Part shown: positions 1-5,246 of the stretch, piece by piece
Layout of the letters: each line of letters begins with the position of its first letter
Position numbering within the stretch: position 1 is the stretch's first letter
Assembly (NCBI RefSeq): GCF_001983935.1
Contig: NZ_CP017641.1
Coordinates: forward strand, 3,720,001 to 3,784,000
Reading direction: 5' to 3'
DNA from: Fuerstiella marisgermanici
GTDB lineage: Bacteria > Planctomycetota > Planctomycetia > Planctomycetales > Planctomycetaceae
DNA: 64,000 bases
The notes under the pieces: generated by a model
The model's database searches: none
The model's input: the letters and a program-made list of their open reading frames with translations, nothing else
Told to the model about the DNA's origin: nothing
Position numbers and translations under genes: made by a program

Positions 1-250
1 CGGCCAGTCGGTTCGTGTCGGTTTCGCAAAGGTACTTCACTTCGACGTTCGGCGTTTCCGCAAATGTGGTCGCCAGCGACATACCTCGACTTAGCCCCAT
101 GACGCCCACGACGACTTTGTCCTGCGCACTGCGAGGGCCTGCCGCTCGCGATGGTGCTGCAGCACCGATGGCCGTTAACGCGGCTCCGGAAGCCGCCACA
201 AAACTTCGGCGAGAGACAGACGAAGGTTGATCGTTCTGATTTTCGGACAT
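1..250 (-). CDS. Gfo/Idh/MocA-type oxidoreductase, N-terminal part (runs off window start)
   Basis: The reverse strand from the ATG at 250 reads 83 codons and leaves the window open, so only the N-terminus is visible. It begins with a Tat-type signal (SRRSFVAASG at about residues 13-22) followed by an Ala-rich hydrophobic stretch. The mature part starts with VVVGVMGLSRG, which resembles the first strand and glycine turn of a Rossmann NAD(P) fold, and then continues with a stretch ending in YLCETD, where the acidic residue expected at the end of the second strand lies. This arrangement is typical of the secreted Gfo/Idh/MocA dehydrogenases that planctomycetes carry in many copies; the substrate is usually a sugar or polyol and cannot be predicted here. 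The gene lies 69 bases downstream of the SelW-like gene on the same strand and may be cotranscribed with it. The family call rests on a short segment. Confidence 0.7.
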   Translation of the reverse strand, partial: MSENQNDQPSSVSRRSFVAASGAALTAIGAAAPSRAAGPRSAQDKVVVGVMGLSRGMSLATTFAETPNVEVKYLCETDTNRLA

Positions 251-319
251 GTAGATATTCCTTAGGGCAGGAGAGTTGCAGGAGGGAAATAATTCGGGCA
301 GAAGGATGATGAAGGTGCA

Positions 320-532
320 CTACAGCTGAGTCAGGATTTCTTCATCCGTGGGAAACCGGTGAGTTTTTTGCTTGCTGAAAATCAGGCGGCCGTCGACTTC
401 GACGTCAAACACACCACCTTTGCTCTTCACAAGTTCAGCATCGACGCCATTCTTGTTCTTGATCGCAGCCGCCAGACTGGTGGCTTGGGGCGTGTAATTT
501 CACATCACGCAGTAGGTGATCCTGATCTTCAT
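320..532 (-). CDS. SelW/Rdx-family selenoprotein (CxxU), UGA at codon 11
   Basis: Read from the ATG at 532 with the UGA at 502-500 as selenocysteine, this gives a 70-residue protein ending at TAG 322-320. The motif is YCVMU (residues 7-11), the position of the CxxC/CxxU redox motif in the Rdx (SelW, SelT, SelH) thioredoxin-like family. The rest also fits the family: NYTP after the motif, a helix, KGGVFDVEVDG, then the LIFSKQ segment and an HRFPTDEEI end. The reading frame after the UGA stays open to a natural stop, and conservation of the family pattern continues on both sides, which argues against a decayed gene. A ribosome site GGAG lies at 542-539, six bases before the ATG. A hairpin of the bacterial SECIS type follows the UGA. 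Rdx proteins are thought to act as thiol/selenol oxidoreductases. Without selenocysteine incorporation only a 10-residue peptide would be made. The selenoprotein reading is an inference from sequence pattern. Confidence 0.85.
468..484 (-). promoter_or_regulatory. candidate bacterial SECIS hairpin
   Basis: On the reverse strand, bases 16-32 after the UGA form GCC-A-CCA, loop GUC, UGG-C-GGC: two three-pair stems around one A/C mismatch. The loop G is base 23 after the UGA and begins a GU. Bacterial SECIS elements lie within the coding region just after the UGA, with a short stem and a G (often GG or GU) at the loop about 16-37 bases downstream, and SelB binds them. Outer CGC and GCG triplets could extend the stem. 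The fold was judged by eye, with no energy calculation. Confidence 0.55.
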
Positions 533-739
533 TGTAAACTCCGTGGTGCAGGTTTCGTCGGCCAACCATATTATGCGCTCGCGAAACGGAAGGCAACCGG
601 CGGGCGATGGTCAGCCTGGGCAATTTGCACGATGAATCGTCTGCAGCAGTTTTCCTTATGCCGGTCCACTGAAATCGGCGATGACTGCCGACATTTATCA
701 GCCAATTCTGCAAATTGTGACGAGGCAATTTCGCGCACG

Positions 740-775
740 AAAAAGTCCCACGCGCCGAGGTCGGAGCGTGGGACT
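740..775 (-). terminator. rho-independent terminator after the Cys-rich exported protein
   Basis: A perfect 10-base inverted repeat (744-753 AGTCCCACGC with 766-775 GCGTGGGACT) is followed on the reverse strand by a run of five T. It lies 25 bases after the stop of the gene at 800-1270 and would end its transcript before the SelW-like gene, which therefore probably has its own promoter in 533-739. Confidence 0.8.
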
Positions 776-799
776 ACTAAGGGGCGTCTGTCAGCCGAA

Positions 800-1270
800 T
801 TACTCCGCCTTTTTCTCTTTCACTTCATAACCCTTTTTGAATGCATCTTCGCTGAAGACCAGTTCAAGCTGTTCGTCGCCTTCGGCACCCGCAACCTTGG
901 CTTTGCATTTGCCGCAGCAGAAGCCGACTTTGACGCCAGCGACCTTCACATTTTGTTCCGCGTTAACGGATCCACCAGACAGCGGGCACTTCACCTGCTT
1001 TGCCTGCTTGGTCTGGATCAGTTGATGATTCGCTTTCGTCGCAAACTTCTTGCTGTCCTTTTCCATGGCGGCTTTGCACTTGCCGCAGCAAACGTAGACG
1101 TTGGCCTTCTTGTAGCTGACGGTTTTTGCGTCAGCAATTTTGATTTCTTTGCCGGCGACCGGACACTTCACTGTGGTGACTTTTTCTGCTGCTTCTTCGG
1201 CGTTGCCAACAGAAACGATGGCAACCATCGCGGCCAGTAGTACAGAAGCTGCTGTTGTGAAAGACTTCAT
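800..1270 (-). CDS. exported protein with two Cys-rich CCGKC repeats
   Basis: The product is 156 residues. Residues 1-24 form a signal peptide (MKSF..., hydrophobic core, ending near GNA). The mature part contains two copies of the same unit: VKCP...G, about 20 residues, then a hydrophobic strand ending in (V/F)CCGKCKA. The first copy covers about residues 34-70 and the second about 92-124. Each unit thus has one Cys near its start and three clustered Cys, like the small YHS- or TRASH-like metal-binding modules. A role in binding copper or another soft metal in the periplasm is an inference. The C-terminus is charged (EVKEKKAE). A strong terminator follows. The gene sits between a second Cys-rich exported protein and the SelW-like gene, but nothing shows that the three act together. 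Confidence 0.85.
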   Translation of the reverse strand: MKSFTTAASVLLAAMVAIVSVGNAEEAAEKVTTVKCPVAGKEIKIADAKTVSYKKANVYVCCGKCKAAMEKDSKKFATKANHQLIQTKQAKQVKCPLSGGSVNAEQNVKVAGVKVGFCCGKCKAKVAGAEGDEQLELVFSEDAFKKGYEVKEKKAE

Positions 1271-1407
1271 AAATGTTTCCTTTAACGATTCGATTGTGTG
1301 GTGTGTGATTTGGAAATCTGAAAGTTCAGATCTGCGCGAGGGTATTCGCAGGCCGAAGCCTCGGCCTGGTGTTTGCGCATGCGTGAGTGTTGCAGTGTTG
1401 CCGGAGT

Positions 1408-1854
1408 TTAAATCCGCCAGACACTGGTCACGGTGCGCGTCGGCGGCGGCCGCCGGACCGTTCCAGGCGAATGCGATCGCTGTGGTTGCTCACACAAGTC
1501 CAGTGAGTACACGTGTGCCGCAGCTGCGTTTTTGCATTGCGCCGAATCGAGCGACACGGTCTGAGCCGTCACAATGGCATTCTGCCGATGTAGGGTCCGG
1601 CAGTGGCACGGTGTGCTCGTTGGTTGATCGGGTTCGGATTCCGATCTGACAGCTGCGACATCAGCGCAGCACGACGGCTTTGATGAAGATGTTCCGCAGC
1701 AGCTGGGACCTGGCTCTTTCTGGCGAATGTTCTTTCCACTCGCCTGGCTGCAACACGAGGTCGGTCCTTTGCAGCAACAGTTCCCCAATGCCGCATTGGG
1801 GATCAACATCCCCAGCGTCATACAGAAAACCAGTATGTTGCGGCTCCAGTTCAC
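1408..1854 (-). CDS. small Cys-rich exported protein
   Basis: I do not recognise a family. From the GTG at 1854 the product is 148 residues: a signal-like start (NWSRNILVFCMTLGMLIPNA), then a very Cys-rich segment with NCCCKG, SCCSQ, SCCGTS and PSCC within about 45 residues, then a low-complexity tail ending in VWRI. An upstream TTG at 1944 would add 30 residues before the signal and seems less likely; the ATG at the internal CMTLGM is another choice. No strong ribosome site decides the start. CC pairs of this type occur in secreted planctomycete proteins of unknown role. It lies between the DUF1501 gene and the CCGKC-repeat gene, both on the same strand. That the frame is coding is likely but not certain, because the C-terminal half has no recognisable pattern. 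Confidence 0.5.
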   Translation of the reverse strand: MNWSRNILVFCMTLGMLIPNAALGNCCCKGPTSCCSQASGKNIRQKEPGPSCCGTSSSKPSCCADVAAVRSESEPDQPTSTPCHCRTLHRQNAIVTAQTVSLDSAQCKNAAAAHVYSLDLCEQPQRSHSPGTVRRPPPTRTVTSVWRI

Positions 1855-1946
1855 GTGTGGCACACTTTCGGCAGCGTTAGACGATGCGTTCGAGAACCAC
1901 GAATTGTACGGACATTTCACTGGTTTGGGAAGATGAGTCCCCAAAA

Positions 1947-3248
1947 CTAAGCAAACACGTTCTGCAGCGGAGTGCCTTCATGAGCAATGTGGAAGGGACG
2001 ACCGTTGGGCGCCAGAATCTCTTTTTTGATCGGCAGACCGCAGCCGTAGGCGATTGTGGCGTTCAGATCCTGAGGGTAGCAGTGGCCTTCTTCGACCGCC
2101 TTTCCGATTTCGTCGGTGCTTCCCACCACGTGGCCGCCTTTCACGCCGGCTCCCGCCAGCATCGCACTAAAGCAGCCGGGGTGATGGTCGCGACCGGCGT
2201 TGGCGTTGATTCTTGGCGTGCGTCCAAATTCGGTGCTCAACACGATCATCGTTTTACTTAACAGGCCTCGCTGTTTCAGGTCGTCGATCAGTGTGGCGAT
2301 GGCAATATCCAGTTGGCCCGCTCGACTGCTGAAACTGTCGTAGATGTTGTTGTGGTTGTCCCAGCCGCCGTGTTCGATTTCGACGAAGCGAACGCCTTTT
2401 TCCACCAGGCGGCGAGCCAGCAAGCAGCCCTGGCCAATCTTGTTCTTGCCATAGCTCTCTTTGACGCTGTCTTCTTCTTTGCTGATATCAAACGCCACCA
2501 AATCGGGACTCTTCAGCAACCGCACGGCCTCGGTGTAGTAGTCAGTGTACGCTTCTACTTCGGTTGTTTGATACTTACGACGGAAGCTGGATTCGAACTG
2601 ACCGATCAGGCGGCGGCGCTTTTCGAAGTTCTTTTCGTTCAGGTACTTTGGTGGCTTCGTGTTTTGCAGCCCCGTGGCCGCATCGCCCACCGGTGCCGGG
2701 GCCAGTTCGGCCGACAGGTAGCCCTGTCCCGGATGACGACTGCCTCCGCCGATGATCACGCTGCCGGGCAGATTTCTGTTTTTGCGGCCTTCGAAATGAG
2801 TCAGCCAGGAACCGAGAAACGGATGGCGAATGGAACCGATCAGCTTGTAACTGGTTCTCATCAAATACCGGCCCTGCTCGTGAGCCCCGGTTTCGGTGGC
2901 CATGGATCGGATCACGGTCAGTTGGTTCATCTTTTCGGCCAGGCGCGGCAAGTGTTCGCCAATTTGTATGCCGGAGACTGAAGTCTGAATGGCCTTGGTT
3001 TCACCGCCTTCTTCTTTATCGGGCTTTGGGTCGAACGTGTCGATGTGACTCATCGCGCCGTTCATCATGAGATAGATGACGTGTTCAGCCTTCTTAGCCG
3101 GCGCGAGTGACGAATTGGCGGCTTGAGCGGCAGAACTAAACAGCGATTCTGCGACCGGCAATATGCTCAGCCCAAAGGCTGTTTTGGCCAGCGACTCCAC
3201 AAAGTTGCGGCGGTCAATTTCGTCCAGGCGTGAGATGGGCTGCGGCAT
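1947..3248 (-). CDS. DUF1501 family exported protein
   Basis: The product is 433 residues. The N-terminus MPQPISRLDEIDRRNFVESL carries the twin-arginine start and hydrophobic stretch usual for DUF1501. Family signatures are visible: HVIYLMMNGAMSHIDTFDPKPD near residue 60, an HGGWDNHNNIYD segment near residue 300, TEFGRTPRINANAGRDHHP near residue 345, and a C-terminal segment around LNATIAYGCGLP. DUF1501 proteins are sulfatase/phosphatase-fold proteins of unknown substrate, found in large numbers in planctomycetes. The gene starts 84 bases after the end of the DUF1549/DUF1553 gene on the same strand. That gene order is the usual one for this pair, whose products are believed to work together at the cell surface or in the periplasm; their reaction is not known. 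Confidence 0.9.
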   Translation of the reverse strand: MPQPISRLDEIDRRNFVESLAKTAFGLSILPVAESLFSSAAQAANSSLAPAKKAEHVIYLMMNGAMSHIDTFDPKPDKEEGGETKAIQTSVSGIQIGEHLPRLAEKMNQLTVIRSMATETGAHEQGRYLMRTSYKLIGSIRHPFLGSWLTHFEGRKNRNLPGSVIIGGGSRHPGQGYLSAELAPAPVGDAATGLQNTKPPKYLNEKNFEKRRRLIGQFESSFRRKYQTTEVEAYTDYYTEAVRLLKSPDLVAFDISKEEDSVKESYGKNKIGQGCLLARRLVEKGVRFVEIEHGGWDNHNNIYDSFSSRAGQLDIAIATLIDDLKQRGLLSKTMIVLSTEFGRTPRINANAGRDHHPGCFSAMLAGAGVKGGHVVGSTDEIGKAVEEGHCYPQDLNATIAYGCGLPIKKEILAPNGRPFHIAHEGTPLQNVFA

Positions 3249-3332
3249 ATTTTTTGGACCTCAGATTTCTGGTGTTGCAACTTCAAGTTGAGCGGTCATC
3301 GCGCGACGGCCTTTGGTCGATCGCTTTCCGTC

Positions 3333-5246
3333 TTATTGAATGAACAGGAATTCCTTCGTGTTGATCAATGCCCAAATCACGTTGCCGTATCCGGCACTGC
3401 CCGCTGAATTGATTTCTCGCTTCGCCACGGTCTGTTCCGGCGTCCTCGGTGGGCGTGACAGAATGGAATAGAAAATCGCGTCGACTCGGTCTTCAAACGT
3501 GGGAGCTCGCAGAACGGTGTCGTAGATCACACTGCCGCGTTCCAGCATCATGTGAGTGATCTCGCCGTTAAACATTGTCAGAATCTGACTCACGCTGCCG
3601 TCGCGTCCGGAACTGGCTATTAGCTCACGGTCGCTCTGGCCGAATTGTCGCAAGAAATGATTCGGCGGCAATGGCGATGATAATTCGGACGCTCGTGCCA
3701 GCGTCATGCCTTTGTACGAATTGCGTTTTCTGGTGATCGTGCGCTGAGCCCCCGACGAGAAGTTCTTGTTGTATTCGTCGGCAATGGTCTGCACTTCAAT
3801 CACGGTGGCTTTGTCCAGATCCATATCGATGACCTGACCAAGTTCGTCGGTTGACGGACGGGTAAACGATTGAGGGTTGTAAACCGCCAGCGTAAGTAGC
3901 GAATCCCAAATCTGCTCGGCCGTCATGCGCCGTAGCACGGGGCCCGGAAAGTAGTAGGGCTCAGAAAGGTCAACATCTGAGGCCGTGGCTTCTCGCTGCC
4001 AAGCTTTGGTGTAGAAGATCGTGCGTTGCAGTCGACGAGTGTCAAAGTTGCTGCGGATCAACTCGGAGGTTAGAAAATCCAGCACGTCCGGGTTGCTGGC
4101 CACGCTGTCATCGCGAATATCGTCAACCGGTTCGATCAGCCCGATTCCAAAAGCCTTCTTCCAGAGTCGGTTGGCCATGTTCTTTGCGAAGCGAGGATTC
4201 TTCTGGCTGGTCATCCAGTCGGCCAACACCTGCCGTGAAGACTTTCCTTTTGTCACGGTTTCCGCGTCGCCGAAGATGGGTTTCATCTTCACGACCTCTT
4301 TAGGTTTCGCGTCTTCATACTGGTAGTCGTGAGGCAGGCGCAGGCTGCGAGGTTGTTCCCAGACTTCAAACAGATTGGCGTTGATGACTCGGCTAAAGTT
4401 TCCGCCCGTGTTGGCGTCCGGGTCCATCTTCTTGAGCTCGTTACGCAGACGGCTTAACGGGTTGCCTTTGGTGAATCGCTTTTTGTCGCCCGCGTAGGCT
4501 CGCGTGCGAACGCCGTACCAATACGCAGACATCTCGTAGTATTCACGTTGCGTCCAGTGATCGAACGGATGGTCGTGGCACTGAGCGCACCCGATTTGAG
4601 TGCCCAGAAAAACCTGCACCATGTTGTCGACCGCGTCGAGTTCCATATTGGAATCGCGCATCGCGAAACCGACGGCTGGATTCTGCCAGATACGACCTTC
4701 CGCCGTCAGCATTTCGCGAACCCATTCGTCGTACGGCTTGTTCGTGCGAATGCAATCCTTGATCCATTCGTGATACGGCTGAGCCAACTGGTTGCCGTTG
4801 ATCGGGTGGTCCTGCAACCGAAGAATGTCGGCCCAGTAGTTGAACATGTGGCTGACGTGATCGTGAGAACCTAAGAGATCGTCGATTAGTTTTTCGCGGC
4901 GAGTCCGATCGCGGCTTTGAACGAAGACGCCGATTTCGTCCAGGCGAGGAATGCGGCCGCCGATTTCCAGATACGCTCTTCGGCAGAATAACGAATCGCT
5001 CAAAGTCGCGTTCGGCGTGATCTCATGGCGACGGTAGCCGTCCTCAAGCATGCGATCAATCTTGGCTGCGGCGTCGCGGACTGCGGCGGTGCTGGCGGCA
5101 TCGACCGGTGCGACTGGGCCCCAGTCTACGGTCCCGGAACCGCGTGGCACTTTGCTGACCGGTTTCTTCTTCTTTTCGTCCGCCATTAGAAATGTGCATT
5201 GCAGAATCAGCACAATGACGAAAACGGATCGAACGATCTTTCGCAT
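3333..5246 (-). CDS. DUF1549/DUF1553 (PSD-type) exported protein
   Basis: The product is 637 residues from the ATG at 5246, which has AGGAG six bases upstream; a longer open frame to 5318 lacks such a site. Residues 1-23 (MRKIVRSVFVIVLILQC...) form a signal peptide. DUF1549 follows, with RRAYLEIGGRIP near residue 85 and a CAQCHDHPFDHW segment near residue 220 that contains a CxxCH cytochrome-like motif. DUF1553 makes up the C-terminal half (NRLWKKAFGIGLIEPVDDIRD..., then LRRMTAEQIWDSLL). The protein ends with the usual ALINTKEFLFIQ. Such proteins are exported and typical of planctomycetes and verrucomicrobia; their activity is not established. Longer relatives carry an added N-terminal cytochrome domain, which this one lacks. 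It is followed by the DUF1501 gene. Confidence 0.9.
   Translation of the reverse strand: MRKIVRSVFVIVLILQCTFLMADEKKKKPVSKVPRGSGTVDWGPVAPVDAASTAAVRDAAAKIDRMLEDGYRRHEITPNATLSDSLFCRRAYLEIGGRIPRLDEIGVFVQSRDRTRREKLIDDLLGSHDHVSHMFNYWADILRLQDHPINGNQLAQPYHEWIKDCIRTNKPYDEWVREMLTAEGRIWQNPAVGFAMRDSNMELDAVDNMVQVFLGTQIGCAQCHDHPFDHWTQREYYEMSAYWYGVRTRAYAGDKKRFTKGNPLSRLRNELKKMDPDANTGGNFSRVINANLFEVWEQPRSLRLPHDYQYEDAKPKEVVKMKPIFGDAETVTKGKSSRQVLADWMTSQKNPRFAKNMANRLWKKAFGIGLIEPVDDIRDDSVASNPDVLDFLTSELIRSNFDTRRLQRTIFYTKAWQREATASDVDLSEPYYFPGPVLRRMTAEQIWDSLLTLAVYNPQSFTRPSTDELGQVIDMDLDKATVIEVQTIADEYNKNFSSGAQRTITRKRNSYKGMTLARASELSSPLPPNHFLRQFGQSDRELIASSGRDGSVSQILTMFNGEITHMMLERGSVIYDTVLRAPTFEDRVDAIFYSILSRPPRTPEQTVAKREINSAGSAGYGNVIWALINTKEFLFIQ

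Follow-up and report, generated by a model that had tools for sequence, protein, structure and literature searches.

A SelW-like gene with an in-frame UGA in Fuerstiella marisgermanici is best explained as an intact selenoprotein gene

The best explanation of a short minus-strand frame in the analyzed window, a stretch of 64,000 nucleotides (C1:3720001-3784000) of the single-contig, 8.92-Mb genome of F. marisgermanici, is an intact SelW-like selenoprotein gene of the Rdx family, and we hold this explanation to be nearly certain. The selenoprotein reading was drawn from the family matches of the product, the sel gene set of the genome, the co-occurrence with selA in relatives, purifying selection on the frame, conservation of the SECIS hairpin and a second gene with an in-frame UGA. 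The gene is a SelW-like selenoprotein gene of an already known kind. The positions of the features are summarized in Table 1.

Table 1. Features of the selW-like locus and of the selenocysteine genes (window positions, unless preceded by C1, the genome contig).
Feature	Position	Strand	Remarks
selW-like CDS	532..320	minus	70 residues with UGA as Sec; ATG start, TAG stop
Shine-Dalgarno-like GGAG	542-539	minus	6 nt before ATG; read by eye
ATG start	532-530	minus	frame translation
CxxU redox motif	511..500	minus	codons TGC GTG ATG TGA
In-frame UGA (Sec codon)	502-500	minus	residue 11
SECIS hairpin	485..467	minus	stem 485-478 with 474-467, loop 477-475; fold and conservation
Stop TAG	322-320	minus	frame translation
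Terminator-like hairpin and T run	774..740	minus	3' of the 156-aa gene; 9-bp stem, 12-nt loop; by eye
tRNA-Sec	C1:1515309-1515400		79.7 bits, gathering score 47; ARAGORN anticodon UCA
selA	C1:1590006-1591346		505.8 bits, above cut-off
selB	C1:2822687-2824543		336 bits, above cut-off
selD domain	C1:1587774-1588730		263 bits, above cut-off
FmdB	C1:5981147-5982400 (L091)	minus	probable second selenoprotein gene; UGA in SLUHGP, begins C1:5982076

The initial annotation had described a SelW-type gene at 320-532 as a 70-residue frame with a UGA at the second redox position of the motif, a ribosome site and a natural stop. This description proved to be correct: the gene is real, its coordinates were exact, and translation of the frame placed the UGA at the last position of a C8-V-M-U11 motif near the N-terminus, with a GGAG in front of the ATG and a TAG at the end. 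The annotation had not given the strand, which is minus; read by eye, the plus strand of the same interval encodes an unrelated peptide. It is also plausible, as had been claimed, that generic gene callers overlook this gene, but the product scores above the cut-off of an NCBI model, NF041051, that has '(seleno)protein' in its name.

For the profile programs, the UGA was replaced by Cys. The product matched the Pfam Rdx family (PF10262) with 64.6 bits against a cut-off of 22.6, TIGR02174 (CXXU_selWTH) with 56.1 bits against 34.2, and NF041051, which NCBI named 'SelT/SelW/SelH family (seleno)protein', with 92.3 bits against 88. These matches extended over both sides of the UGA, and because the Rdx/SelW scores exceeded the curated cut-offs through the UGA, the frame is not a product of chance. 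Additionally, a profile of the SelW alignment matched solved chains of the SelT/W/H type by sequence, with values of 4.9e-11 for 2fa8 and 0.0022 for 2npb (Selenoprotein W). The fold of the Rdx/SelW family is thioredoxin-like, and the product of the window gene probably has this fold as well. The bacterial SelW-like selenoproteins represented by TIGR02174 and NF041051 (Campylobacter type) agree with the window product in length, in the CxxU motif and in where the UGA stands; viewed through the family models, on which the likeness rests, we saw no difference in kind from the Campylobacter-type proteins, the host here being a planctomycete. A member of this family in C. jejuni is translated past its UGA, according to Ribo-seq and proteomics data in excerpts of a 2025 report (PMC11955535).

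Full-length copies were present in four of the seven other genomes of the genus (L035, L037, L043 and L044), and Nei-Gojobori comparisons with these genus-mates gave pN values of 0.12-0.19 and pS values of 0.62-0.73 for the codons after the UGA. This result indicated that the part behind the apparent stop is under purifying selection at the protein level. For the nine codons before the UGA, pN was 0.05-0.18, and the approximately five synonymous sites there are too few for a rate. The same strand-specific evidence bears on a plus-strand ORF of 293 aa (window 359-1240; L011 7360..8241) that covers most of SelW, and of which the SelW frame could be regarded as a shadow. This ORF exists mechanically; however, it begins with GTG, is antisense to SelW as well as to the neighbouring 156-aa protein and had no Pfam match at E 1, and it is on the minus strand that the Rdx match and the selection on codons are found. 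We therefore consider it most improbable that the SelW frame is its shadow.

To place the gene among its relatives, we compared the Rdx matches of 170 genomes of the order. Such matches were found in 51 genomes (69 in total); one internal TGA was present in 38 of the 69 matches, a TAG in one and no stop in 30. Thirty-six of the 38 TGA-bearing genes were of the SelW type with the UGA in CxxU, one per genome. Whether relatives carry Cys or UGA at position 11, as the initial annotation had asked, is thus answered by UGA at the same CxxU codon in 36 order genomes. These relatives also bear on the view that the window gene is a pseudogene or a sequencing error, namely an ordinary CxxC Rdx gene whose Cys codon turned into a stop. 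The suspicion that relatives might be disrupted elsewhere found some footing in a partial SelW copy with a TAG in G103 (L075) and in a Cys form in G001 (L080; CRQC, with 77.3 bits below the cut-off of 88 set for NF041051), a genome that has selA and tRNA-Sec; it did not refute the selenoprotein reading, the UGA being conserved. Eleven of the 30 stop-free matches were translated, including a fragment from G017, and L080 was the only one of these 11 that looked close to SelW. Within the genus of eight genomes, G019 and G020 had selA and tRNA-Sec and no SelW match, and the SelW fragment of G017, its only one, starts at base 25 of its contig, that is, at a contig end.

Two further Rdx genes with a TGA were observed in the order. 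A diverged CxxU paralogue (CTDU; L072:1501-1704, plus strand) was found in G080, which also has a standard SelW, and a Cys-type Rdx gene in G081 (C190; L073:820-999, minus strand) carries a TGA at a position that is Trp in its kin (F-W-G-T-F). The latter TGA may reflect an error, decay or something else.

A second collection of 84,980 species yielded 308 relatives, and the best 80 of these had TGA at the Sec position in 80 of 80 cases and Cys in none; 21 of the 80 were the same genes as the order loci and 59 were additional. Conservation of the UGA codon in 36 order genomes and in relatives outside the order loci, together with the low pN/pS behind the UGA, weighs strongly against a pseudogene or an error. 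The record titles of these 80 relatives named Planctomycetota, Acidobacteriota, Myxococcota, Pseudomonadota and others. In a tree of 81 SelW proteins, which was built from few columns, the window copy grouped with a Planctomycetaceae bin (98/88), and phyla were intermixed in places, which is no proof of transfer. A plasmid collection contained one Rdx match, 42% identical, from Thermomicrobium roseum.

The initial annotation had pointed out that a selenoprotein would need the selenocysteine machinery elsewhere in the genome, and we found selA, selB, selD and a tRNA-Sec with the anticodon UCA, all above their cut-offs. The tRNA-Sec folds well (z -5.2), and the other 12 matches were all below the gathering score. 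Among 14 control genomes, matches above cut-off were found for selA in one, selB in two, selD in two and tRNA-Sec in five. Next to selA and on the same strand lies the gene for a fusion protein of 760 aa (L012:1387-3669, minus strand), in which the selD domain makes up the C-terminal half and a pyridine-nucleotide-disulfide oxidoreductase domain is N-terminal. This fusion protein counts as SelD because it scored above the cut-offs of TIGR00476 (selD; 260 against 125) and TIGR03169 (338 against 310) and below that of TIGR04369, 'oxidoreductase/SelD-related fusion protein' (fusion_not_SelD; 412 against 700). Its sequence contains GCGCK, in which we take the active-site residue to be Cys. The surroundings of the tRNA-Sec gene (L010:1-20000) contained two kinds of transposase (ISL3 and ISAs1), a resolvase-like gene and a large protein; the antiphage-type matches of this protein were weak and fell far short of the cut-off. 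Full gene sets for Sec insertion, as found here, were described in 2016 for Planctomycetes P1 and P2, G. obscuriglobus and I. pallida in passages of PMC4807772; unlike the present case, SelW has no occurrence in the main text of that report.

The machinery also accompanied the gene across the order. All 36 UGA-SelW genomes, which were chosen for a UGA in an Rdx gene, had selA above cut-off, in comparison with 34 of the 134 other order genomes (Fisher p 1.1e-17, uncorrected for relatedness). At E 1e-9, 59 of the 170 genomes gave a tRNA-Sec, among them 27 of the 36; all nine UGA-SelW genomes in which this search found none are multi-contig drafts, and the stricter search filters are liable to lose matches. 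These findings are relevant to the idea that the UGA is decoded as a residue other than Sec, through leaky read-through or a recoded tRNA. Such decoding would need no SECIS, and we found no support for it; it is at odds with the presence of tRNA-Sec (UCA), selA, selB and selD, with the alignment of the UGA position to Cys in the translated Cys homologues and with the conservation of the SECIS described below. We consider it very unlikely.

A second gene with an in-frame UGA was found in the same genome. Its frame scored 492 bits, above the cut-off of 327.8, with the TIGR03129 model of formylmethanofuran dehydrogenase subunit B, and a 7-bp hairpin with the loop AGUU lies behind the UGA. A search with the formate dehydrogenase alpha model (TIGR01591) gave six matches, none above cut-off, and the UGA-bearing one was FmdB itself. 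An FmdB-family match with one UGA was present in at least 29 of the 170 order genomes, the placement of the UGA being established for the F. marisgermanici gene and the other genomes being counted by the one UGA. Of the 29 genomes among the matches listed, 28 had selA above cut-off; in the remaining one, G062, a tRNA-Sec was found together with an incomplete selA located at the end of a contig. Planctomycete P2 likewise has an FmdB selenoprotein, as stated in a portion of PMC4807772. In 20 of the 70 selA-positive order genomes, neither a UGA-SelW nor a UGA-FmdB was among the matches listed; possible reasons are Sec use in other genes, incomplete genomes or ongoing loss of the trait.

Behind the UGA of the selW-like gene, the predicted fold revealed a hairpin with a 3-nt loop (GUC), seven pairs and one A.C mismatch, located 22 nt after the UGA and with an energy of -11.5 kcal/mol. 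The bacterial SECIS consensus listed in part of PMC13188914 comprises a loop of 3-9 nt, a stem of 4-16 bp, a G in the first two loop positions, a distance of 16-37 nt from the UGA and an MFE of at most -7.5, and the hairpin conforms to every rule listed there. Its stability alone was not above that of shuffled sequences (z -0.2 to -1.0); conservation, not stability, is the evidence for the SECIS. In an alignment of 37 genes (the 36 UGA-SelW genes and L072; 35 distinct rows), the first two loop bases, G and U, were invariant in 37 of 37 rows, as was the U-G-G that follows the loop, and the third loop base was C or U. Over the 35 distinct rows, 85.4% of cells were paired. In particular, pair 21-33 was unbroken in all 35 (C-G in 27, G-C in five and U-A in three) and lies at the third positions of Ala codons, with the exception of L072, which has Val on one side; this one pair thus changes compensatorily at synonymous sites. 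Pair 18-36 was G-C in 13 rows, A-U in eight, G-U in one and unpaired in 13, and pairs 19-35 and 22-32 were each unpaired in 14. The firm helix consists of columns 20-25 with 29-34, minus 22-32.

Three of five measures exceeded all 500 shuffles: the cells paired, the cells with a change on both sides (16, as opposed to 5.7 in shuffles) and the covariation score (0.254 versus 0.161, reached by 0 of 500, with slid partners giving at most 0.080). The other two were not above the shuffles: there were 2 pairs with two-sided change, compared with 2.0 in shuffles, and 7 pair types, compared with 6.7. The loop codons were also strongly restricted: Ser was encoded by AGT in 22 of 22 cases and Gly by GGT in 15 of 15, whereas in the rest of the genes the figures were 13 of 93 for Ser and 33 of 203 for Gly (L072 lies outside this background). 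In the best 80 of the 308 relatives, the loop codon was AGT in 45, GGT in 25 and an Arg codon in 10. The hairpin with its compensatory change also speaks against a decayed or misread CxxC gene, and, together with the evidence from the relatives, it leaves the pseudogene or error account with hardly any probability. When the genome was searched with a covariance model built on the SelW SECIS, only SelW itself was a clear match (66.6 bits), and three weaker matches (L084-L086) were rejected as they had no convincing UGA gene; 150 of 6431 first-look candidates were scored in this search, and other selenoproteins may be missed.

The surroundings of the gene were inspected as well. Upstream of selW lies a gene for a 156-aa protein (window 800-1270, minus strand) that looks secreted. 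The protein starts with a signal-like segment and carries the CCGKC motif twice; Pfam gave no match to it at E 0.001, and none of the NCBIfam models scored above cut-off. The terminator-like hairpin after this gene suggests that selW has its own transcript; with its 12-nt loop, the hairpin is absent from the list of the terminator scan, whose loop limit was 8. The scan also found no sigma-70-type promoter, and an Rfam scan of window positions 1-5000 gave one irrelevant match below its gathering score. Downstream of selW, at the window end, lies a gene for a 437-aa oxidoreductase of the Gfo/Idh/MocA type. Across 116 SelW loci (21 of them duplicates across both collections), no neighbour was common to more than 10 loci, and the neighbours therefore give no functional clue.

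The frame and its conservation, the machinery, and the hairpin and its conservation were observed by computation; we infer Sec insertion in F. marisgermanici, a redox cycle and partners of the product. During translation, SelB with Sec-tRNA-Sec would bind the SECIS hairpin behind the UGA, and selenocysteine would go in at residue 11 in place of termination. As a small thiol/selenol oxidoreductase, the product would most likely cycle between a Cys8-Sec11 selenylsulfide and a reduced form, and low-molecular-weight thiols may be coupled to this cycle. The proposed role, thiol/selenol redox chemistry at Cys8 and Sec11, is taken by analogy from the family. For SelW-like proteins, sections of PMC1088965 call the function unclear and mention a glutathione interaction in addition to the CXXU motif.

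The same sections report 48 SelW-like Sec genes from the Sargasso Sea with bacterial SECIS elements and the CXXU motif, and the window gene resembles them in both respects. The Sargasso Sea genes are environmental and, as presented there, belong to no known species, whereas the window gene resides in a single-contig genome together with the machinery. Bacterial SelW-like proteins with Sec, together with the scarcity or absence of Cys homologues in organisms that use Sec, were already described in 2005-2006, as seen in parts of PMC1088965 and PMC1794560.

A further reading, which we offer as a tentative and rather unlikely one, is that the SelW subfamily is locked to Sec, with its SECIS held in nearly fixed codons, so that the gene forms a movable, self-contained unit that is lost rather than converted to Cys. 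This reading is based on the AGT or GGT loop codon in 70 of the 80 best relatives, with Arg in the other 10, and on a SECIS that varies little between phyla, unlike the neighbouring genes; the 10 Arg codons make it less likely. If it were true, the gene and its SECIS could move to, and work in, any genome with Sec machinery.

The selW-like gene is a clean case of a gene that is easily mis-annotated, since reading the UGA as a stop cuts it after codon 10. Our findings add a lineage whose use of Sec is well supported, its single-contig planctomycete genome containing at least two probable selenoprotein genes. In addition, the order set, with 36 UGA-SelW genomes and 34 selA genomes without such a gene, provides data for the question of how the Sec trait is retained or removed.
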